From contig JACNJS010000039.1 of the NCBI GenBank assembly GCA_014382445.1, forward strand, positions 1 through 64,000: a DNA stretch of 64,000 nt. Direction: 5' to 3'. Position 1 is the stretch's first letter, and every line of letters begins with the position of its first letter. The translations under genes and the position numbers were made by a program. The notes beneath the pieces are model-generated. The model searched no databases. It saw only the letters and a list, made by a program, of their open reading frames with translations, and was not told the DNA's origin. Below, piece after piece: positions 636 through 55,904 of the stretch. The DNA comes from Bacteroidota bacterium (GTDB lineage Bacteria; Bacteroidota; Bacteroidia; Bacteroidales; F082).

Positions 636-2104
636 AGCTCAAACCACTCATCAATTTTATTCTGAATATTCTGCGTGGCTTTTTTGTACGTAAATTCGTT
701 TGTATGTTGGTTATAATCGTAATCTTTTCCCCATACAACATGGTTTTCAACAATATCATTAAGCGAGGATATTATAAAGTCAAGTTCAGCATCGGTCATG
801 GTAGGATGAAGCGAAACCCTTACAAAACCAGGCTTAATTGATAAATCGCCGCTGTTTATTCGTTCAACAATACGATGCGATTCTTCAGGCGTAACGTTAA
901 GCAAAAAATGCCCGTAAGTTCCGGCACATGCACATCCACCCCTTACCTGAATTCCATATCTGTCGTTCAGTAATTTCACAATCAGATTAAAATGTATATT
1001 CAGAAACCAAAATGAGAATACCCCAAGACGATCAGTAATATTTTCTGCCAATATATGTATGCCATTTATTTTTGAAAAGCCATTAAATGCTCTTTTCACT
1101 AATTCTTCTTCGCGTTGGGCAATTAATCCGGTATCCATCTGTTCTTTTACTTTAATCGCCATCGCGGTTCTTATCGCCTGAAGGAAACCAGGTGTACCAC
1201 CATCTTCACGCAGCTCAATATCATCAAAGTATTTATGTCCACCCCAGGGATCAGTCCATTCAACAGTTCCTCCACCCGGATTATCCGGAACCTCTTTATT
1301 ATATATGTTTTTGCTAAAAACCAGTACACCTGAACTTCCGGGTCCACCCAAAAATTTATGGGGAGAAAAGAAGATGGCATCTAAGCTTTGCAACGGGTTG
1401 GCCGGGTGCATATTAATATCCACATAGGGTGCCGATCCGGCAAAATCTACCATTGCCAAACCTCCATTCCTGTGCATAATTTCGGCCATTTCATAATAAG
1501 GAGGAATAACTCCTGTTACATTTGAACCACCAGTAAATGACCCTATTTTTAATTTATGATCCTTATGTATTTCCAACTGTCGTATAAGCTCATCTTTACT
1601 TACTTTGTTTTCAGCATCAGGCTCCAAAACAACAACCTTAGCCACAGTTTCAAGCCAAGAAGTATGATTAGAGTGATGCTCCATATGGGTTATAAATACA
1701 ACCGGCACTTCTTCTCTGGGAACGCATTGTTTTTCAACTGTAAACATAGCGCAGTTTCGCAAACCCATTATCCGCTGTAGTTTGTTAATAACCGCAGTCA
1801 TTCCGGAACCGGCAGTTATAATAACATCATTTTTATTTGCACCTGCATGTTCTTTAATTTTTTTAAGAGCTGCATGATATGCATTGGTCATCATGGTGCC
1901 GGTTTCAGTGGTTTCGGTATGCGTGTTGCCTATGTAGGGACCAATAATATTTGTCATTTTTTCCTCGATAGGCCTATAGAGACGACCGCTGGCTATCCAG
2001 TCGGCATAAATCATTTTCTTAATTCCATATGGTGTTTCAAACTCCATGTCATCACCAATTATGTTCTTTCTGAATCTCGAAAAATGTTCTTCCAGTTTAT
2101 TCAT
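632..2104 (-). CDS. PLP-dependent class V aminotransferase (cysteine desulfurase-like)
   Basis: Cytoplasmic PLP enzyme of fold type I, class V, related to cysteine desulfurases and selenocysteine lyases. The probable PLP lysine is in SPHKFLGGPG near residue 250, preceded by an acidic AMVDFAG motif. A cysteine-rich GGCACAG segment near residue 390 sits where the catalytic cysteine loop lies in desulfurases. At 490 residues it is longer than IscS/SufS (about 400), and no Fe-S cluster genes are adjacent. It is therefore probably a stand-alone member of uncertain substrate rather than the housekeeping desulfurase. The ATG at 2104 gives the full N-terminus. The 3' end overlaps the peroxiredoxin stop. 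Confidence 0.85.
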   Translation of the reverse strand: MNKLEEHFSRFRKNIIGDDMEFETPYGIKKMIYADWIASGRLYRPIEEKMTNIIGPYIGNTHTETTETGTMMTNAYHAALKKIKEHAGANKNDVIITAGSGMTAVINKLQRIMGLRNCAMFTVEKQCVPREEVPVVFITHMEHHSNHTSWLETVAKVVVLEPDAENKVSKDELIRQLEIHKDHKLKIGSFTGGSNVTGVIPPYYEMAEIMHRNGGLAMVDFAGSAPYVDINMHPANPLQSLDAIFFSPHKFLGGPGSSGVLVFSKNIYNKEVPDNPGGGTVEWTDPWGGHKYFDDIELREDGGTPGFLQAIRTAMAIKVKEQMDTGLIAQREEELVKRAFNGFSKINGIHILAENITDRLGVFSFWFLNIHFNLIVKLLNDRYGIQVRGGCACAGTYGHFLLNVTPEESHRIVERINSGDLSIKPGFVRVSLHPTMTDAELDFIISSLNDIVENHVVWGKDYDYNQHTNEFTYKKATQNIQNKIDEWFEL

Positions 2105-2383: not shown

Positions 2384-3094
2384 ATGCTTAACAACTTGAT
2401 CCTCGACAATGTACTGTTTCTTGACATTGAAACTGTTTCTCAGGTGCCTGATTTTAATGATCTTGACGATAAATTCAAACTTTTGTGGGAAAAAAAAGCA
2501 GAGTTATTAAAACGGAATAAACCTGATACCACGGCTGATAAACTTTACGCGAGCGCAGGTATTTATGCTGAATTCGGAAAGATTGTTTGCATCTCATGTG
2601 GTTATACAAATGGAAAAGAGTTTAGGATAAAATCCTACTACGGTGATGATGAAAAAATATTATTAGAAGAATTTGCGGAGCTTCTTGATAAGCACTATAA
2701 TAATAATTACAATCTTCTATGTGCCCATAATGGGAAGGAATTTGATTTTCCATATATTGCACGCCGTATGCTTGTTAAAGGCATTAAACTGCCAGATATA
2801 TTAAATCTTGCAGGTAAGAAACCATGGGAAGTTAAGCATTTAGATACAATGGAGCTATGGAAATTTGGTGATTACAAGCATTATACTTCGCTCGAACTAT
2901 TAGCTGCATTATTTAATATTCCAACACCAAAAGATGATATTGATGGATCAATGGTTGGTCATGTTTATTGGGTTGAGAAGGATCTGGACCGTATTGTAAC
3001 CTATTGCCAAAAAGATGTTGTTACAATTGCTCAGCTTTTAAGAAAATATCTTGGCTTAAAATTAATTTCAGATGAAAATATTGTTGCTATTTAG
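2384..3094 (+). CDS. Predicted 3'-5' exonuclease, PolB-exonuclease-like
   Basis: Stand-alone DEDD-type 3'-5' exonuclease resembling the proofreading domain of B-family DNA polymerases. Motif Exo I is LDIET near residue 14, Exo II is HNGKEFDFPYI in the middle, and Exo III is YCQKDVV near the C-terminus. Together they supply the four metal-binding acidic residues. I start it at the ATG at 2384 (236 residues) because the longer reading begins at a TTG and adds 12 residues with no domain value. It lies alone, divergent from the aminotransferase and 115 bases before dnaB. A role in DNA repair or nucleotide turnover is inferred; the substrate is unknown. Confidence 0.85.
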   Translation: MLNNLILDNVLFLDIETVSQVPDFNDLDDKFKLLWEKKAELLKRNKPDTTADKLYASAGIYAEFGKIVCISCGYTNGKEFRIKSYYGDDEKILLEEFAELLDKHYNNNYNLLCAHNGKEFDFPYIARRMLVKGIKLPDILNLAGKKPWEVKHLDTMELWKFGDYKHYTSLELLAALFNIPTPKDDIDGSMVGHVYWVEKDLDRIVTYCQKDVVTIAQLLRKYLGLKLISDENIVAI

Positions 3095-3196
3095 TAAATA
3101 AATATGTTAGAATTTGAGTTAAATATCATGTGTTAAAAGTTTTATATAAAGTCAAAAATAGTTATTAACACTTTATTAACTGTCTTCCAATATTTG

Positions 3197-3209: not shown

Positions 3210-4721
3210 ATGGAAGATGCCAAAAAAGATACTCGAAAAGCAAGCTTATCTAAAAGCGTAAATATTTCTGCTCAGCAGATGGCCGAGCATGGCAAGGTTC
3301 AACCTCAGGCTATTGACCTCGAGGAGGCTGTGCTAGGGGCTATGATGCTTGAAAAGGATGCTGTAAGTGCTGTTATCGACATTCTTTCTCCGGCTGTTTT
3401 TTATAAGGATAGTCATAAAAAAATAATGGGGGCTATTGCAAGATTATTTACAAAATCGGAGCCTGTTGATATACTTACAGTAACCAACGAACTGAAAAGC
3501 ACAGGAGAGCTTGAAATGGTGGGCGGTCCTTATTACATTACCATGCTTACCAGTCGTATTGCATCTTCTGCAAATGTTGAGTATCATGCAAGGATAATCC
3601 TACAAAAGCATATTCAACGCGAATTAATACGAATATCTTCTGAAATAATTAAAAACGCTTTTGAAGATACAACAGATGTTTTTGATTTGCTTGATAAAGC
3701 AGAGCGTAACCTGTTTGCAGTTTCTGAGTCGAACCTGAGACGAAATTTTGAAGACATGCCTTCATTAATAAAGCAGGCAATTATAGATATTGAGAGTGCC
3801 AGGAATTCACCTGAACATATGCGGGGAGTACCATCGGGATATATTGATCTTGATAGAATTACTTCAGGATGGCAAAAGTCGGACCTTATTATACTTGCCG
3901 CCCGCCCTTCAATGGGTAAAACGGCTTTCGCCTTAAATATGGCGCGAAATGTAGCTGTTGATTTCAAAAAACCTATTGCGTTCTTTTCATTGGAAATGTC
4001 ATCTGTTCAGCTTGTTACAAGGTTAATATCAAGTGAAACAGAATTAAAATCTGATAAACTTAAAAGGGGTGATCTTGCAGGTCATGAATGGCAACAATTA
4101 ACGGATAAAGTTTCGAATTTGGTTGATGCTAAAATGTTTATTGACGACACTCCTGCTCTCTCGGTTTTTGAATTAAGGGCAAAATGCCGTAGATTAAAGC
4201 AACAGCATGATATACAAATGGTATTTATTGATTATCTGCAGTTAATGAGTGGAGGAATTGATAATAAAGGTAACCGTGAACAAGAGATTAGCCAGATATC
4301 AAGATCGCTCAAAGCCTTGGCAAAAGAACTTGACGTACCAATTCTTGCATTATCACAATTAAGTCGTGCTGTTGAAACCAGACCTGGTCAGGCTAAGCGA
4401 CCAATTTTATCTGACTTGCGCGAGTCGGGCGCGATTGAACAGGATGCCGACCTTGTACTGTTTATTTACAGAGCAGAATATTATAAAATAGATGTATTCG
4501 AAGATGGATCACCAACTCAGGGTGTATCGGAAATTATTATTGCCAAGCATCGTAACGGCGCTGTTGGCGATTTGAAACTTCGGTTTATAGCCGACTTTGC
4601 CAGATTTGACGACTACTCAAAGAGCGGGCAAGGTTATACAGCTGAGGATGTTAGTGCCGGAATAAAAAACTTCTCATCAAAAATGAATTCCATGACTGAA
4701 GATGAGCAAGATCCATTTTAG
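3210..4721 (+). CDS. dnaB: Replicative DNA helicase DnaB
   Basis: Hexameric ATP-dependent helicase that unwinds DNA at the replication fork and interacts with primase. The N-terminal DnaB domain (about residues 30-135, starting QAIDLEEAVLGAMM) is followed by a linker and a RecA-like C-terminal domain. Walker A (ARPSMGKTAF) is near residue 235, Walker B (VFIDYLQLM) near 337, and the arginine-finger region (SDLRESGAIEQDADL) near 405. The length of 503 residues is normal and there is no intein. It is followed after 36 bases by a secreted protein gene with no evident functional link. Confidence 0.97.
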   Translation: MEDAKKDTRKASLSKSVNISAQQMAEHGKVQPQAIDLEEAVLGAMMLEKDAVSAVIDILSPAVFYKDSHKKIMGAIARLFTKSEPVDILTVTNELKSTGELEMVGGPYYITMLTSRIASSANVEYHARIILQKHIQRELIRISSEIIKNAFEDTTDVFDLLDKAERNLFAVSESNLRRNFEDMPSLIKQAIIDIESARNSPEHMRGVPSGYIDLDRITSGWQKSDLIILAARPSMGKTAFALNMARNVAVDFKKPIAFFSLEMSSVQLVTRLISSETELKSDKLKRGDLAGHEWQQLTDKVSNLVDAKMFIDDTPALSVFELRAKCRRLKQQHDIQMVFIDYLQLMSGGIDNKGNREQEISQISRSLKALAKELDVPILALSQLSRAVETRPGQAKRPILSDLRESGAIEQDADLVLFIYRAEYYKIDVFEDGSPTQGVSEIIIAKHRNGAVGDLKLRFIADFARFDDYSKSGQGYTAEDVSAGIKNFSSKMNSMTEDEQDPF

Positions 4722-4757: not shown

Positions 4758-5603
4758 ATGAAATCTAAAATTCAAATTACAATATGGACATTGATAAGTC
4801 TGCTACTATTAAACATTTCAAGTACATATGCCCAAAAAAGTATAGAGTTAAAGTATAATCTTAACGCTGGCGACAAATACATGTTTGTTACAGATATTGA
4901 ACAGGATATTACTTTTGAAGCTATGGGAAATACAACTACTTTAGAGCAGTTGATGTCTTTTCAAATGACTTCACTTGTAAATAAAATTGAAGTAGATGAA
5001 ATCTTTATGGAATTTATCTTTGATAGGATTAAAATGAACCAGAAGATATTTGGAATGGAATTAAACTACGATTCAGATGATTCATCAACATTTACATCTG
5101 GAATGGGAGCCAAAATAGGAGAGGAGTTTAACAAAATTATTGGTGCATCAGTAAAAGTAGTTATGGATGATAACGGTAATATTAAAGATATGGATTTAAG
5201 CAGTATAACCGATAACAGCGATTTAACAAATAATTTAAGTTCGGGAAATACATATGCAGTTTATCCTGAAGGAAAAGTGAAGGTTGGTGAAAGTTGGGCA
5301 ACAGATATCAAGCCGCTTGAAAACAGCGAGATGAAGGTGCATATGAACTATACATTATTAAAAATAGCACGCAATCATGCTACTATTGGGGTTGATGGAA
5401 CTTTAACTGCTAATGAAGTTGCCGGAAAGGAAATTAGTTTAAACGGAACAACTTCAGGTGAGATGATAGTTGATAGAAAAACCGGCATTCTTATTAGCTC
5501 AAGTATTGATATGGAAATTGACATGGAAATGGAAGAGGGTGGTAATAAAATTCCGGCAACAATTATGAGCACTGCTGTAACAACCGTTAAAAAGGTAGAA
5601 TAA
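4758..5603 (+). CDS. Secreted DUF6263-like protein
   Basis: A 281-residue exported protein of unknown function. Residues 1-25 form a signal peptide (hydrophobic ISLLLLNIS, then TYAQ before the cleavage site). The mature part is rich in beta strands and acidic residues. It has the layout I associate with DUF6263 proteins of Bacteroidota: an early LKYNLNAGDKYMF segment, a central YPEGKVKVGESW segment, and a final strand after a DRKTG turn. There is no lipobox, so it is probably periplasmic. It is co-directional with dnaB 36 bases upstream and convergent with the TonB receptor. Confidence 0.6.
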   Translation: MKSKIQITIWTLISLLLLNISSTYAQKSIELKYNLNAGDKYMFVTDIEQDITFEAMGNTTTLEQLMSFQMTSLVNKIEVDEIFMEFIFDRIKMNQKIFGMELNYDSDDSSTFTSGMGAKIGEEFNKIIGASVKVVMDDNGNIKDMDLSSITDNSDLTNNLSSGNTYAVYPEGKVKVGESWATDIKPLENSEMKVHMNYTLLKIARNHATIGVDGTLTANEVAGKEISLNGTTSGEMIVDRKTGILISSSIDMEIDMEMEEGGNKIPATIMSTAVTTVKKVE

Positions 5604-50462: not shown

Positions 50463-50536
50463 GGCGAGGTAGCTCAGTTGGTTAGAGCGTCGGATTCATA
50501 ACCCGGAGGTCCCGAGTTCAATTCTCGGTCTCGCTA
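50463..50536 (+). tRNA. tRNA-Met (CAT)
   Basis: A cloverleaf folds with acceptor GGCGAGG against TCTCGCT (50529-50535, G-U pairs at both ends) and discriminator A50536. The D-arm is GCTC...GAGC. The anticodon loop TTCATAA reads CAT, and the T-arm CCGAG/CTCGG encloses TTCAATT. CCA is not encoded. The anticodon stem has an A-C mismatch next to the loop. An elongator tRNA-Met is likely, since the initiator GGG/CCC anticodon-stem pairs are absent. A lysidine-modified tRNA-Ile2 cannot be excluded. Confidence 0.92.
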
Positions 50537-50541
50537 CAAAA

Positions 50542-50610
50542 AGTGTTAAAAGGCTAATAATCAGACAAATAACACTAATAAAAAAGTAGTTTTGCGACAC
50601 GCTGCGACAC
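50542..50610 (+). repeat. Inverted and direct repeats between tRNA and integrase start
   Basis: AGTGTTA (50542-50548) is inverted as TAACACT (50570-50576). A direct repeat TGCGACAC occurs at 50593-50600 and 50603-50610, 10 bases apart. This lies between the tRNA 3' end and the integrase start, where attachment-core and arm-type integrase sites are expected. No second copy of the tRNA 3' end was seen in the window. Confidence 0.4.
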
Positions 50611-50673
50611 AAATGATTAAGAATGCAAGATTAGAGGCATTGTGTTTTCCTTGGGGAAGGAGAAACAAAAGCC

Positions 50674-51021
50674 ATGAAATATAGACTTGCAAAAATGTTT
50701 GATAACGATAATCAACTAAATCAAAGATGGTTTGTTTATTATTTTTTCATGCATCCAGAAACGGGAAAAATGCAACGTTTTCGGATATTTATTAGTGCTA
50801 AGTTACTTACCAAAGTAGCCAGAAGAAGAAAAGGTGAAGAAATAATTACAGCAATCAACACCAAATTAAAAAGGGGTTGGAATCCATTTACTTCTGAACA
50901 ACTAAAATTAACCACAGTAAGTGAAGCACTTGATCATGTAATGAAGATCAAATCGGCAACAATTTGCAAGCGTTCAATATGGACTTACAATTCTGTGATT
51001 AGGCACTTATATACCTATTAA
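50674..51021 (+). pseudogene. Truncated tyrosine recombinase/integrase (N-terminal part)
   Basis: The first ~110 residues resemble the N-terminus of Bacteroidota tyrosine integrases. The arm-binding segment reads RWFVYYFFMHPETGKMQRF, then RGWNPFT near residue 70. A SAM-like core-binding helix begins (VSEALDHVMKI, KRSIWTYNSVIRHL) and then breaks. A full enzyme would run to about 400 residues with a catalytic Arg-His-Arg-Tyr set, none of which is present. The break is near 51005-51012, where a minus-strand frame also ends. It lies 137 bases after the tRNA-Met, the usual integration point. It is not expected to be active. Confidence 0.75.
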
Positions 51022-51208
51022 CATCATCCTGAAACACAAGCTTCTTTCCCGAGTCTTCCATAAACTCATTATAATCCGCTCCCTGGTCAGAAATAAATTC
51101 ATCAAGCTCTACCTTTGACTTAATGAATTTAGCCCTGTTACGGATAAGCTCATTCTTCTTTTGAAAATTTTGGATCTGGTCATCCAATACTTTCTTCACA
51201 TCCTCCAC
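50999..51208 (-). CDS. Short helical ORF, possibly a truncated gene fragment
   Basis: A 69-residue frame from a GTG at 51208. It is highly charged and probably helical (IQNFQKKNELIRNRAKFIKSK; the run is split by a Gln- and Asn-rich turn). I do not recognise it. The same frame continues upstream without an ATG to the TAG stop of the lipoprotein gene at 51248-51250. Its C-terminus overlaps the end of the integrase fragment, so the same rearrangement may have cut it. It could be a chance frame. Confidence 0.3.
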   Translation of the reverse strand: MEDVKKVLDDQIQNFQKKNELIRNRAKFIKSKVELDEFISDQGADYNEFMEDSGKKLVFQDDVNRYISA

Positions 51209-51247
51209 GCTCGGAAGTTGAGTTTTACCGTTTCCACGTTCTTCAAT

Positions 51248-52576
51248 CTATTTAAGTACTCCAACCGGTTGTATTTCTACAAAAGCCTGGCCGGTAACTG
51301 GTTGGCCGCTTAGTATTCCTTCAACCGATCCCAATCCTTCATACTTAATCTTTGTTGAATCAATAATGATCTCCTGATCATCTCTCACCATGTTGATGGT
51401 AAGGTCTGCTGAATAATCCGTTGACGTGAGTTGAATGCGGTGCTGCATAGCGTATTTAAGTCCTGATTTCGGGCTTACCCAATCCGTACCTGGCACATGG
51501 TAGATATTAATCTCGTTGATTGCCCACGAATGCACGGCCTTGCGGGCAGTGTTGAGAGTCCTGTCGCTGTCATTACGGAACAATGTTGCGATTGGGAGGG
51601 AACCTGTTGCGCTATTTATCTCGATAACCATAATCGCAGCATTCTCTTCAGGGAGCTGAATCGCGTAGAAGTCCCACGATGCGTTACTAAAGACCTCGCT
51701 CGCCTGTTGATCGTAACTCTGGACAACATAATCCATCCACATCAATCCGTCCGATCCATTGCTTAATGAAATTGTGTCGTCAAGCTTTATCGAAAATTGT
51801 TCAACGTCCATCAATGGCAGTGAATAGTAGTATGAACCCTGGCAGGACATCGGATCACCGGTTGCTTCAAGATAGTTTGAAACTGACCTTGCCGGCGACT
51901 CCATAATCTGTGCCCTCTGCTCCTCACTTAAATACTGCGGGAAGAACGATGCCGGCCCATACCCTTGATTTACTACTCCGAGCCTGTCGCGTAGTTGCAC
52001 CTCAGCATGGAGCCTTACACCATTAAAATCAGGAATATCGGCGGTCAGGATGTACTCCGCATCAGCTGCGCCCATATTTCCCGAGATAAGACTCATCGTT
52101 ATCAGTGGTATTGTTGTTATAGGCGAGTTCAATGTTACATCCCATGGATTGGATGTCACAATCATCAGTGAATCAATGTCCAGCGTCACGAAACCCCGCC
52201 ATTCATACTTACCAAGGGAATCGTTGCCGAATGCAACGATGGCAGGAACCACCGGTGCTCGAAAACCATGATATGACATTTCAATACGCTGCACCGCGAT
52301 AAAGAATACACCGATATCATCAGGCGCATCATTATCCACCAGGTTCCCAAAAAAGAACCAGCCGTCAAGATCGTACTCAAAATGTTCAGACGATAAGTAT
52401 TCGGAAAGTTGCTGTGCACTCTGTGTCTGTGGTAGAGCATAGTCTTGTGTAAAAAATGCGCACCCTGCAGCCGGTGGCGGGAAAACTTGTTTGTCCGGAT
52501 TCTTATTGCAACCGCAGTAAAACCAAAAAATTGAAATAAAAACGGCCGTACCTAAGACTGCATTAATTTTTTTCAT
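51248..52576 (-). CDS. Lipoprotein with AttH/CrtC-type lipocalin-like domains
   Basis: A secreted lipoprotein of 442 residues from the ATG at 52576; upstream ATGs add 8-12 residues. The lipobox-like FYCGC gives a Cys near residue 23. The first domain opens with LDGWFFFGNLVD, resembling the EWWYxTGxL start of AttH/hydroxyneurosporene synthase-like proteins. The last ~90 residues (WVSPKSGLKYAMQH, DDQEIIIDS, KYEGLGSVEG, TGQAFVEIQPVG) match the lipocalin end motifs. The function is unknown. Base composition is more GC-rich than the neighbours by eye (up to about 50% in lines I counted), consistent with transfer. It lies between the integrase scar and DUF2007. Confidence 0.7.
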   Translation of the reverse strand: MKKINAVLGTAVFISIFWFYCGCNKNPDKQVFPPPAAGCAFFTQDYALPQTQSAQQLSEYLSSEHFEYDLDGWFFFGNLVDNDAPDDIGVFFIAVQRIEMSYHGFRAPVVPAIVAFGNDSLGKYEWRGFVTLDIDSLMIVTSNPWDVTLNSPITTIPLITMSLISGNMGAADAEYILTADIPDFNGVRLHAEVQLRDRLGVVNQGYGPASFFPQYLSEEQRAQIMESPARSVSNYLEATGDPMSCQGSYYYSLPLMDVEQFSIKLDDTISLSNGSDGLMWMDYVVQSYDQQASEVFSNASWDFYAIQLPEENAAIMVIEINSATGSLPIATLFRNDSDRTLNTARKAVHSWAINEINIYHVPGTDWVSPKSGLKYAMQHRIQLTSTDYSADLTINMVRDDQEIIIDSTKIKYEGLGSVEGILSGQPVTGQAFVEIQPVGVLK

Positions 52577-52643
52577 TTTTCTGAACATTTGTAGTTTTTC
52601 TTTGCTTTTCATAGCTTCTCATTTTAATACCATAAGTCCATAA

Positions 52644-52673
52644 TGTGTATACACACGTTAATAGCGTTAATAT
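52644..52673. promoter_or_regulatory. Palindrome and direct repeat upstream of the lipoprotein gene
   Basis: TGTGTATACACA (52644-52655) is a perfect 12-base palindrome, followed by two 9-base repeats of CGTTAATA(g/t) at 52656-52673. They lie about 70-100 bases upstream of the lipoprotein ATG, a suitable place for an operator. The rest of the 272-base gap to DUF2007 shows nothing else. Confidence 0.3.
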
Positions 52674-52848
52674 CTCTTGATATTCGACTGATAAGGACAG
52701 GTTATTATTTTTTGTTATGTCATCGGTTTGATGAGTTAACATCAAATTTATAAATTAATTCATTCAACTAGCAAAACGAACAAAAAAAAGGACGAAAACT
52801 CATTAATCTTAATCCATGATCTGCTGCTCAATTTATGTTAACTTATCT

Positions 52849-53106
52849 TCATTCTTCATCATTCAAACCCCTAAAATAAGCATCCACAATTTCCTGTGCC
52901 TTCGGTGAATCACTATTAGAAATCATAACCTTAACACCTTCAGAAAACGCGGGATCGTAGGCATATGAGCTTAGAACATTATTTTTAAGAAATGACCTGA
53001 TTTTTGAATCTTCAAGAAGACTTTTAATTAATTCAGCCTCCCATAAATTGCCTGAGAATATCTCAATTATTTTATCCGTTTTGTTATTTGATGAGTTTGT
53101 AGTCAT
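52849..53106 (-). CDS. DUF2007 family small protein
   Basis: An 85-residue cytoplasmic protein. The DUF2007 pattern is seen in KIIEIFSGNLWEAELIKSLL (strand then helix), a mid segment with an exposed loop, then EGVKVMISNSDSPKAQEIV. The fold is ferredoxin-like and is described as putative signal-transducing. It is alone on its strand, with a full consensus promoter. It may be the first original core gene right of the accessory scar. Confidence 0.85.
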   Translation of the reverse strand: MTTNSSNNKTDKIIEIFSGNLWEAELIKSLLEDSKIRSFLKNNVLSSYAYDPAFSEGVKVMISNSDSPKAQEIVDAYFRGLNDEE

Positions 53107-53137
53107 TAGTAAATTAAGAATTTAGATAGCAAGATTA

Positions 53138-53167
53138 CAAAAATAGTGAATTTAAGTTTTTGTTCAA
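53138..53167 (-). promoter_or_regulatory. DUF2007 gene promoter (TTG-N19-TATTTTTG)
   Basis: On the minus strand TTG (53167-53165), 19 bases, then TATTTTTG (53145-53138) is an exact consensus match. The transcript would start near 53133, about 27 bases before the ATG at 53106. Confidence 0.65.
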
Positions 53168-53203
53168 AATCCTTATTTATAAACAATCTAAAAATAAATA
53201 GCT

Positions 53204-53437
53204 ATGAACTTAATTTACAAAGGTTTAGCAATAGTTGCCTTACCAGCAATTTTATTATTATTCAGTTATATCGGTGGGAGTCCGGGTGGTAAAACTGGCT
53301 CAATTGGAGAAGAATGGAATACCGATGTTTATAATTTTTATTTTTACTTTTGCATTTTGCAAGTCACTAAAAAACTAGCACAAATACAAGCCCGATATTA
53401 TGTCGAACATTCTAAAAGCAATTATACCTCCATCTAG
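53204..53437 (+). pseudogene. Probable 5' remnant of a secreted GGSPGGKTGS-type protein
   Basis: The first ~40 residues have a signal-like hydrophobic segment (LAIVALPAILLLFSYIGG) followed by GGSPGGKTGSIGEE. As I recall, this is the opening of secreted Bacteroidota proteins in which a CxxCH motif follows soon after. Here no cysteine pair follows. The frame instead runs through AT-rich, promoter-like DNA and overlaps nrfH by 38 bases out of frame. The real part may be only 53204 to about 53320. It could also be an unrelated short gene. Confidence 0.35.
53345..53352 (+). promoter_or_regulatory. TAnnTTTG -7 element for nrfHA
   Basis: TACTTTTG matches the -7 consensus, and the start would lie near 53357, about 43 bases before nrfH. 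No TTG occurs at N19. A nearby ATG-like triplet at 53325-53327 is not a match. No FNR-type site was recognised. Confidence 0.45.
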
Positions 53438-53981
53438 TTGGCAGTTTCCTGTAGCCATTATGGCCGGAGTGCTTTTTGGTTTGAGCGTGTATGTGCTGTA
53501 TATTTCTAATTCATTTTCTTACTTATCAAATGACCCAAAAACGTGCATCAATTGCCATGTGATGAATCATGAATATGCTTCATGGTTTCATAGTGCCCAC
53601 CGGGAAAAAGCCAGTTGTAACGATTGTCATGTGCCTCATAATAACATCTTTAATACTTATTTATTTAAAGCAAAGGATGGTTTGCGACATGCAACCATGT
53701 TTACATTAAGGCAAGAACCTCAGGTAATTAGAATTAAGGAAGAGGGTGCCAATGTGGTACAAAACAATTGTATACGTTGCCATAATGATGTGATTACAGA
53801 TCGTCGCTTGTTAGCGGCGACCAAAAGTTTTGATCATTTCAGAACAGAAGGTCGCAAGTGCTGGGATTGTCATCGTGAAGTACCGCATGGAAGGTTAAAC
53901 AGCCTTTCAGCGTCACACAATGCACTTATCCCCCAAACCAGAAAACCAATTCCTGATTGGATTAAAAATATTGTAAAGTAA
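53400..53981 (+). CDS. nrfH: Cytochrome c nitrite reductase small subunit NrfH
   Basis: Membrane-anchored tetraheme cytochrome c that passes electrons from the quinol pool to NrfA. One N-terminal transmembrane helix (about 17-36) is followed by four CxxCH sites at C49, C73, C124 and C154. The length of 193 residues fits NrfH/NapC-family proteins. The nrfA gene begins 21 bases after the stop, and the pair forms the NrfHA complex for ammonium-producing nitrite respiration. Confidence 0.95.
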   Translation: MSNILKAIIPPSSWQFPVAIMAGVLFGLSVYVLYISNSFSYLSNDPKTCINCHVMNHEYASWFHSAHREKASCNDCHVPHNNIFNTYLFKAKDGLRHATMFTLRQEPQVIRIKEEGANVVQNNCIRCHNDVITDRRLLAATKSFDHFRTEGRKCWDCHREVPHGRLNSLSASHNALIPQTRKPIPDWIKNIVK

Positions 53982-54002
53982 AATTTCGTAAAAATATATG
54001 TT

Positions 54003-55514
54003 ATGAGTAAGCAAAGAAAACCAATAGTAAATTGGATAGTATTTTTGGCCACAATCTTAGTGGTGTTTTTTCTGGGTTTATTAGCGTCATCTATTGTTGA
54101 GAGGCGTGCTGAAGATCCTGTCGCTTTGGGACCTCAAGTCTCGATTGCTCCACTTGAATCAAGAAATGAGTTATGGGGAAAGAATTACCCAACCGAATAT
54201 GAATCATGGTTAAAAACTGATGAAGGTGATTTTCTCTCAAAATACAATGGAAATGAAATGATTGATATGTTGGAAATAGATCCTCGTTTAGTTGTTCTGT
54301 GGGCAGGATATGGTTTTGCCAAAGATTATAATCAAGGAAGAGGACATGCATATGCTATTGAAGACTTGAGAAATACACTCCGAACAGGTGGCCCCACTGG
54401 TCCTGATGATGGACCAATGCCATCAACTTGCTGGACTTGTAAATCACCTGACGTGCCAAGAATTATGAACGAAAGTGGTGTAACAGATTATTATACTGGA
54501 AAATGGTCGAAGTTTGGATCGGAGATTGTAAACCCAATTGGCTGTGCTGATTGTCACAATAACAAAACTATGGAACTTCAAATAACCCGTCCTGCTTTAG
54601 TAGAAGCTTTTGACCGTAATGGTCGAAAAATTACCGACGCTTCTCATAATGAAATGCGTTCTTTAGTTTGTGCTCAGTGCCATGTGGAATACTATTTCGA
54701 TAAAAACCGACCCGGTAGTGAAGGCGCGAATTACTTAACTTTTCCTTTGGATAATGGTATTACTGTTGAAGCTATGGAAGCTTATTATGATGAGATCGGT
54801 TTTAGCGATTGGACTCATTCCTTAAGTAGGGCGCCGATGTTAAAAGCGCAACATCCGGGATGGGAAGTATTTACAATGGGAATTCATGCAGAAAGAGGTG
54901 TAAGTTGTGCTGATTGCCATATGCCATATATGAGTGAAGGGGGACGAAAATATACCGATCACCATATTCAATCTCCTTTGAATAACATCGAAAATTCTTG
55001 TATGGTATGTCATAAAGAAAAAACTGAAACCTTGATGAAAAATGTGTATGCCCATCAAGATAGGATTATTGAAAATCGAGATGAACTAGAGAAATTAATT
55101 GTTAGAATGCATGTCGAGGCAAAAACAGCTTGGGATTCAGGCGCCAGCGAAGAGCAAATGAAAGATATTCTTATGGATATCCGTCACGCGCAGTGGCGTT
55201 GGGATTATGCTGCAGCATCTCACGGTGGCTCTTTCCATGCTCCTGTCGAAATTTCAAGGGTAATTGCAGGTGCTATTTCCATTGCTCAGGAAGGAAGAAT
55301 CAAACTTGCAAAAATTTTAATGACTCTAGGGCATTCGGCTGAAGTTGCATATCCTGATATTGAAACAAAAGCTAAAGCTCAGAAATTCATCGGATTACCT
55401 ATGGATAATTTAATTAAAGAAAAAGAAGAATTTAGAAAGAATCTTGCACCTAAATGGGATCAGGAAGCTAAAGAAAGAGAATCTAAATTAAAGATTACCT
55501 GGGTGAATAATTAA
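54003..55514 (+). CDS. nrfA: Ammonia-forming cytochrome c nitrite reductase NrfA
   Basis: Periplasmic pentaheme enzyme that reduces nitrite to ammonium with six electrons. The catalytic heme is bound by CWTCK at C143-K147, the lysine-ligated form that defines classical NrfA. Four CxxCH sites follow at C181, C223, C302 and C333. Residues 9-31 form an N-terminal signal or anchor helix. The conserved H-x-Q-x-P-style segment HHIQSPLNN is near residue 320. The length of 503 residues is standard. It is co-transcribed with nrfH; cytochrome-c maturation genes are not in the window. Confidence 0.97.
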   Translation: MSKQRKPIVNWIVFLATILVVFFLGLLASSIVERRAEDPVALGPQVSIAPLESRNELWGKNYPTEYESWLKTDEGDFLSKYNGNEMIDMLEIDPRLVVLWAGYGFAKDYNQGRGHAYAIEDLRNTLRTGGPTGPDDGPMPSTCWTCKSPDVPRIMNESGVTDYYTGKWSKFGSEIVNPIGCADCHNNKTMELQITRPALVEAFDRNGRKITDASHNEMRSLVCAQCHVEYYFDKNRPGSEGANYLTFPLDNGITVEAMEAYYDEIGFSDWTHSLSRAPMLKAQHPGWEVFTMGIHAERGVSCADCHMPYMSEGGRKYTDHHIQSPLNNIENSCMVCHKEKTETLMKNVYAHQDRIIENRDELEKLIVRMHVEAKTAWDSGASEEQMKDILMDIRHAQWRWDYAAASHGGSFHAPVEISRVIAGAISIAQEGRIKLAKILMTLGHSAEVAYPDIETKAKAQKFIGLPMDNLIKEKEEFRKNLAPKWDQEAKERESKLKITWVNN

Positions 55515-55550: not shown

Positions 55551-55904
55551 ATGGATAATTCTTGCCTCGAGTGCGGTGAACCTCTGATAGGTAGAGTAGA
55601 TAAAAAGTTCTGTAACGATCAGTGCAGAAACAACTATCACAATAAAGAAAACAGAGAGGATTCGGCTCTGATAAGAAATGTTAACATCATACTTAAGAAA
55701 AACAGAAATATATTAAAGCAATTAAATCCGGTTGGCAAAGCAAAAGTTAAAAAACAGGAATTGGTTACACTGGGTTTTAATTTTAAATATTTTACCAACA
55801 TTTACAAAACAAAAGAGGGTCGCAACTATTATTTTGTTTACGAACATGGGTATATTGATATTGGCAACGATTATTTTGCATTAGTTATAAATGTTGATAT
55901 TTAG
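55551..55904 (+). CDS. Small zinc-ribbon protein of unknown function
   Basis: A 117-residue protein. The N-terminal 30 residues carry two Cys pairs (CLECGEPL and FCNDQCRNNYH), a small zinc ribbon like those of DUF2116-type proteins. A Lys-rich helical segment follows (about 40-70), then a beta-rich C-terminus (NYYFVYEHGYIDIG). A role in nucleic acid or protein binding is possible but not shown. It lies 36 bases after nrfA with its own promoter-like sequence. Confidence 0.7.
   Translation: MDNSCLECGEPLIGRVDKKFCNDQCRNNYHNKENREDSALIRNVNIILKKNRNILKQLNPVGKAKVKKQELVTLGFNFKYFTNIYKTKEGRNYYFVYEHGYIDIGNDYFALVINVDI

Follow-up and report, generated by a model that had tools for sequence, protein, structure and literature searches.

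The sequence directly behind a tRNA-Met gene of a Bacteroidota bacterium is very probably the left attachment site (attL) of a decayed prophage, a scar left when the element was truncated by deletion or replacement. The locus lies in a window of 64,000 nucleotides (the whole stretch of DNA analysed; contig JACNJS010000039.1, positions 1 to 64,000), and its features are collected in Table 1. In the proposed course of events, a temperate phage with a tyrosine integrase of 371 aa would have recombined the 15-bp core of its attP with the 3' end of tRNA-Met, which would have restored the tRNA and put the integrase gene 136 nt downstream; a later deletion, or replacement by other mobile DNA, would have fused the integrase at about codon 115 to unrelated sequence, and with it the catalytic domain, the remainder of the element, and the right attachment site (attR) would have been lost. 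With neither attR nor a catalytic domain left, the remnant cannot excise on its own. The lost element was probably a phage, mainly judging from contig C308 of the related genome G003 (see below), and we infer the order of events at the scar. The type of scar is an ordinary one, common in genomes, and it is well supported here.

Table 1 Features of the tRNA-Met locus, with positions in the window
Feature	Position	Strand	Basis or remark
tRNA-Met (CAT), complete; integration target	50463-50537	+	ARAGORN
15-bp attachment core (tRNA 3' end)	50523-50537	+	same 15 bp near the G003 integrase
Inverted repeat AGTGTTA...TAACACT in att arm, function uncertain	50542-50548 / 50570-50576		
Two direct GCGACA repeats, 10 bp apart; candidate arm-type integrase sites	50594-50599 and 50604-50609	+	
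Tyrosine integrase stump, residues 1-115 of about 371, without catalytic domain	50674-51021	+	homology to relatives
Joint: integrase similarity ends, minus-strand fragment begins	51004-51035, ~51018		estimated from alignments
Fragment, C-terminal end cut; probably of a family of small proteins, in some cases encoded close to tyrosine recombinases	51002-51247	-	profile match
Lipocalin_9-like gene, apparently intact; in altered block	51248/51251-52612	-	
DUF2007 gene; in altered block	52849-53106	-	
5' remnant of Reeler/Por_Secre_tail gene	53204-53311	+	first right-hand part similar to the element-free relative

A truncated integrase behind tRNA-Met

The first-pass annotation had read the ORF, which has 115 codons, as the N-terminus of a tyrosine integrase that starts 137 bases past the tRNA 3' end and breaks off after ~110 residues, without catalytic residues. 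Its position directly behind tRNA-Met stands, the spacing being 136 nt as measured, and its identity was borne out by homology: it is 55% identical to intact integrases of 371 aa over the part retained. This identity rests on relatives, because no library model matches the stump convincingly: Pfam gave two sub-threshold matches to unrelated families (E 0.02 and 0.05), PHROGs no match at E <= 0.1, NCBIfam no match at E <= 1, and tblastn against phage records no match at E <= 1e-5. Searched against 41 genomes (its own and 40 relatives), the stump found itself and matches in five others, two of them strong and from the same genus (G004, E = 3.9e-42; G003, E = 1.2e-38), with the 55% identity extending over 113-115 residues in each. 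The two integrase genes sit in frames open for 375 and 382 codons; each encodes a protein of 371 aa, in which a SAM-like core-binding domain starts at about residues 86-93 and a Phage_integrase domain covers about residues 194-355. The alignment of all three sequences has no gaps up to residue 115, the point at which the window frame runs into a stop.

What the stump keeps is the N-terminal part and 20-30 residues of the SAM-like core-binding domain; most of that domain and the whole catalytic domain with its nucleophilic tyrosine (residues 194-355 in the relatives) are missing, since the frame ends at residue 115. Judged by its sequence, it is a remnant and not a working arm-binding tyrosine integrase, and annotators are warned that this ORF should not be entered as a functional integrase.

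The predicted tRNA-Met is 97-100% identical to the integrase-free tRNAs of G002, G004 (contig C168), and G005, and would still work. A simple consensus scan of 50538-51287 found no plus-strand terminator-like site, and the usual terminator behind this tRNA therefore seems to be gone; on G004:C168 a hairpin-and-T stretch directly follows tRNA-Met (by eye). In another member of the family (G009:C1), the DNA behind tRNA-Met (1070309-1070384) carries 7.3 tandem copies of a 111-bp unit, 99% alike (L111, 9534-10337), the unit holding the last ~34 nt of the tRNA together with a hairpin-and-T stretch; we take these repeats to resemble the tyrT/rtT repeats of E. coli.

Relatives and the choice of target

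Comparison with relatives, which had been proposed as a check at first reading, yielded three informative arrangements: a full integrase behind the tRNA (G004:C111), an attP-like form (G003:C308), and the tRNA without an element (G004:C168 and G005; also G002, the contig of which ends 247 bp after the tRNA). On G004:C111 (locus L042), tRNA-Met occupies 74-148 and the integrase 284-1399, with 135 nt between them. On G003:C308 (locus L043), a copy of the final 15 tRNA bases, preceded by non-tRNA DNA, stands 123 nt before the integrase; genes of phage type (HTH regulator, P22_AR_N, HNH) are found on the same contig, and the arrangement is read as the attP of an unintegrated phage. Of the five other ORFs of L042, the four scanned (all but the one at its end) have no match in Pfam or PHROGs, so that the phage nature of this tRNA-linked copy is not directly visible.

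Wider relatives of the integrase were sought in viral contigs, in a set of 84,980 species genomes (best 80 of 82 matches), and in 393 genomes of the order, 28 of which gave a match to the integrase profile. The ten closest loci found, each counted once, are L042, L043, L118, L119, L123, L124, L125, L201, L202, and L203. Use of the tRNA as an integration site, on which the first reading depended, is seen in this set: tRNA-Met lies directly upstream in seven of the ten, two of which, L123 and L125, are not independent because they agree at 295 of 300 positions, counted from the tRNA. No tRNA-Met precedes the integrase in the attP-like L043, in L118, or in L119 (its sequence starts at the match). 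The tRNAs of L124, L201, and L203 differ clearly from that of the window and are taken by us to be initiator tRNAs. The more distant relatives examined have tRNA-Ala, -Leu, -Ser, or -His upstream, and some have no nearby tRNA. Against phage records, the intact L042 integrase matched 37 records, all below 60% identity (about 25-28% among the matches listed). A group of Bacteroidota integrases uses the tRNA-Met site marked by this locus, which also yields candidate core and arm sequences for these enzymes.

As a separate observation, the HxxR box, part of the catalytic pentad, of the relatives L118-L234 was read from an alignment of 124 rows, in which some loci are doubled or split in two rows: 43 rows read YxxK, 40 read YxxR, and 41 hold no letters. 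The integrases of the tRNA-Met group (nine loci, L125 left out) all read YxxK, a lysine replacing the second arginine.

Putative arm sites

Repeats that might be arm sites had been noticed between tRNA and ORF, and the GCGACA pair is indeed present there. Pairs of G[ACG]GACA or GAAACA, 9-12 bp apart, were found in six of nine upstream regions (window, L042, L123, L124, L201, L118), and pairs of the stricter G[AC]GACA in five of the nine; L043, L202, and L203 have no such pair, and L119 (without upstream DNA) and L125 (near-duplicate) were left out of the count. In 2000 shuffles the mean was 0.02 regions with a pair and the maximum 1, a figure that overstates the case, since the motif was chosen after the sequences had been seen. 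The distance from the tRNA end to the first repeat is 53-57 bases in five of the six pair-bearing regions, those with a tRNA. This near-constant position speaks for the arm-site reading, and the repeats fit as candidate sites.

The inverted repeat closer to the tRNA (50542-50576) is weak when taken alone, being reached by 17 of 300 shuffles; of eight regions, L043 and L202 show it clearly, L124 lacks it, and the others have a weak form.

The far end of the element

A search for a repeat of the tRNA 3' end marking the far attachment site had also been proposed, and it found none. A prophage with two sites would carry a direct repeat of the core at its far end; the single copy found is that in the tRNA itself, both in the whole genome (G000; <=1 mismatch) and in the window with the rest of its 154-kb contig C75 (<=2 mismatches), and no attR was recovered from either search. 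The genome is 96% complete, in 97 contigs, and attR may be in the ~4% that is absent, or may differ from the core by more than one base. Among the relatives, no second copy of the tRNA 3' end was seen in the examined stretches of G308, G157, G130, G155, L123, and L124, and none yielded an entire element flanked by two att sites.

Within G000 the integrase profile has one match at E <= 1e-30 (five of seven candidates scored), and one of eight places with PF00589 resembles the intact integrase (24% identity, E 2e-6). A C-terminal recombinase fragment (G000:C80:94964-95080, L008) was considered as the missing half and rejected: it shares DNA with a recombinase frame upstream, as if both belonged to one frameshifted integrase, and tblastn detects no similarity between it and the intact integrase at E <= 1.

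What adjoins the stump

The minus-strand frame that had been described as cut at the same point as the integrase proved to be open and gene-like in codon use, scoring above all 103 open off-frame chunks. It lies beyond the stop of the lipocalin-like gene and in phase with it; that gene ends where its G001 homologue ends, and is therefore not truncated, the cut affecting only the frame behind it. For the same reason, the frame was rejected as a C-terminal extension of the lipocalin.

No relatives of the frame were found in the 40 related genomes or in viral contigs, and phage records gave just two matches (E = 0.6). Among 395 genomes of the class there were two weak matches, both in one other genome and both to ORFs of 135 aa adjoining a tyrosine recombinase; this homologue in turn has no relative in viral contigs or plasmids. 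A family search with an alignment that included the window row found the small protein in 14 of 393 genomes, its own included, as open frames of 120-184 codons. A profile built from 19 of the 21 family loci, with the window row left out, matched the frame as the sole one among 513 frames of the window (E = 1.2e-4), an assignment of moderate weight given the short alignment of 37 residues. A recombinase lies in the sampled flanks of six of the 21 family loci, in one by a weak match. With moderate confidence, we regard the frame as the cut end of a gene of another mobile element.

The stump and this fragment are part of a larger altered block, from 50538 to ~53167, which spans ~2.6 kb in the window versus ~0.4 kb on G004:C168 and contains the att arm, the stump, the minus-strand fragment, the Lipocalin_9-like gene (present in two of 31 genomes, its own and G001), and the DUF2007 gene. 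On the element-free contig (L109), tRNA-Met lies at 3061-3135, followed 433 bp on by a Reeler/Por_Secre_tail ORF at 3569 and by an ORF of 117 aa at 4792. Similarity to the Reeler gene spans 53168-53311 in the window; the counterpart of the 117-aa ORF lies at 55551-55904, and the gene order from there is as in G004 up to 60811, apart from ~10 kb that G004 has in addition after the 117-aa ORF. No phage match was found for the three gene-like ORFs scanned in 51002-53167 (Pfam; PHROGs for the fragment only). Further to the right, at 53204-55514, the Reeler/Por_Secre_tail gene is cut after ~35 codons and directly followed by an NrfH/NrfA-like cytochrome pair (names by eye), so that the locus has been changed once more, right of the scar.

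Loss of the rest of the element, as first proposed, is upheld by these data; that a single deletion caused it has become uncertain, since the fragment probably belongs to another mobile-element family, and replacement or a second insertion is possible. A scar formed in two steps, with the prophage broken by a second mobile element that brought the minus-strand gene, perhaps together with those for the lipocalin and DUF2007 proteins, is a serious possibility that we hold tentatively. It draws on the match of the fragment to a profile built without it, on the recombinases near some loci of its family, and on the presence in the block of genes that are absent between tRNA and Reeler gene on G004:C168. 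However, as a homologue occurs in G001, of the same genus, the lipocalin gene may be ordinary chromosomal DNA, and the fragment is itself cut at the joint, so that one deletion between neighbouring elements fits equally well.

Contiguity of the assembly

A false join at ~51018, with the end of a prophage assembled onto unrelated chromosomal DNA and the real genome carrying either an intact prophage or an empty site, appears improbable. Contigs of relatives do break at or close to this tRNA: G001:C267 and G003:C175 stop inside the gene, and only 73 bp of G004:C111 precede it. The window contig itself stems from an assembly in 97 pieces. Moreover, 50538-51260 matched at length, among 173 genomes of the family, only its own genome (two others matched over 31-32 bases), and the stump is not visibly faster evolving than its intact relatives: it shares 63 of 115 residues with each of them, versus 67 of 115 shared between the two. 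Against a false join, the joint lies inside the 154-kb contig, the right side of which keeps the gene order found behind the same tRNA on G004:C168, and no other part of the stump's integrase was found in G000 (profile search and PF00589 places). On the left, a fabI-like gene (name by eye) adjoins the tRNA as it does in G005 and G002, a point weakened by the arrangement elsewhere: the two are ~7 kb apart in G001, G003, and G007, and on different contigs in G004.

Selection on the short frame

A true junction in a decayed prophage thus remains the preferred reading. The stump scores weakly in codon use, with 7.5% of gene chunks below it and 5% of open off-frame chunks above it, and third positions account for 66 of 135 and 63 of 142 differences from the two intact genes, versus 76 of 145 between these. 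The sequence fits a rather recent truncation and shows no sign of selection on the short ORF. The scar reading, for which the first-pass annotation had named the same short ORF under selection in relatives as the contrary observation, survived: this ORF occurs in none of the 40 relatives.

Two further stumps were observed beside tRNA genes. In G155, from another family of the order, an integrase stump corresponding to residues 1-162 of the 371 of the model lies beside tRNA-Met (L234, 8097-8696 and 8789-8865, both on the minus strand) and abuts a convergent gene that, judged by eye, encodes a PLP-type enzyme. In G031, a stump of about residues 3-111 (L013, 1471-2022, minus strand) lies beside tRNA-His (1980-2055, minus strand), with IS3-like transposase ORFs at 17-1182 (by eye).

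That the window stump has been kept as an arm-DNA-binding fragment, which would occupy attP/attL arm sites and hinder related phages at tRNA-Met, is hardly credible. In favour of this reading, no stop interrupts the 115 codons, the candidate arm sites persist along with the N-terminal part, N-terminal stumps occur beside two other tRNAs (tRNA-Met in G155, tRNA-His in G031), and, a small point, similarity in G031 ends at about residue 111, near residue 115 of the window stump. Against it, the short ORF is in none of the 40 relatives, its third-position bias is inherited from the full gene and no stronger than between intact genes, and it scores weakly in codon use; in addition, the stump of G155 stops at a different place (about residue 162), and the IS3-like transposase ORFs near the G031 stump (by eye) are a plain cause of decay. 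If it were true, an expressed N-terminal domain would act as a resident inhibitor, and the stumps of the three lineages, two of which break off near the same residue, would be selected leftovers, not debris. Decay at integration hot spots explains the stumps of G155 and G031.

Comparison with known elements

A limited search of the open-access literature, which is no proof of absence, found no paper on tRNA-Met prophages of Bacteroidetes with an attL, and none on truncated integrases or fragments at tRNA genes. Defective prophages and remnants of genomic islands with truncated integrases beside tRNA genes are known. The window resembles these in having an integrase fragment by a tRNA and in the loss of the far end, and differs from them in nothing of kind; the fragment retained here is the N-terminal third of the integrase.

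The window integrase was also set beside phages and other elements that use tRNA 3' ends and have arm-binding tyrosine integrases. An example is the Bacteroides element NBU1, which integrates in tRNA-Leu (PMC8138268). The window is like such elements in that the integrase gene lies behind the tRNA and points away from it, and in that the core is the tRNA 3' end, with candidate arm sites between core and gene; it differs in keeping the left end only and in its target, which is tRNA-Met where NBU1 uses tRNA-Leu.
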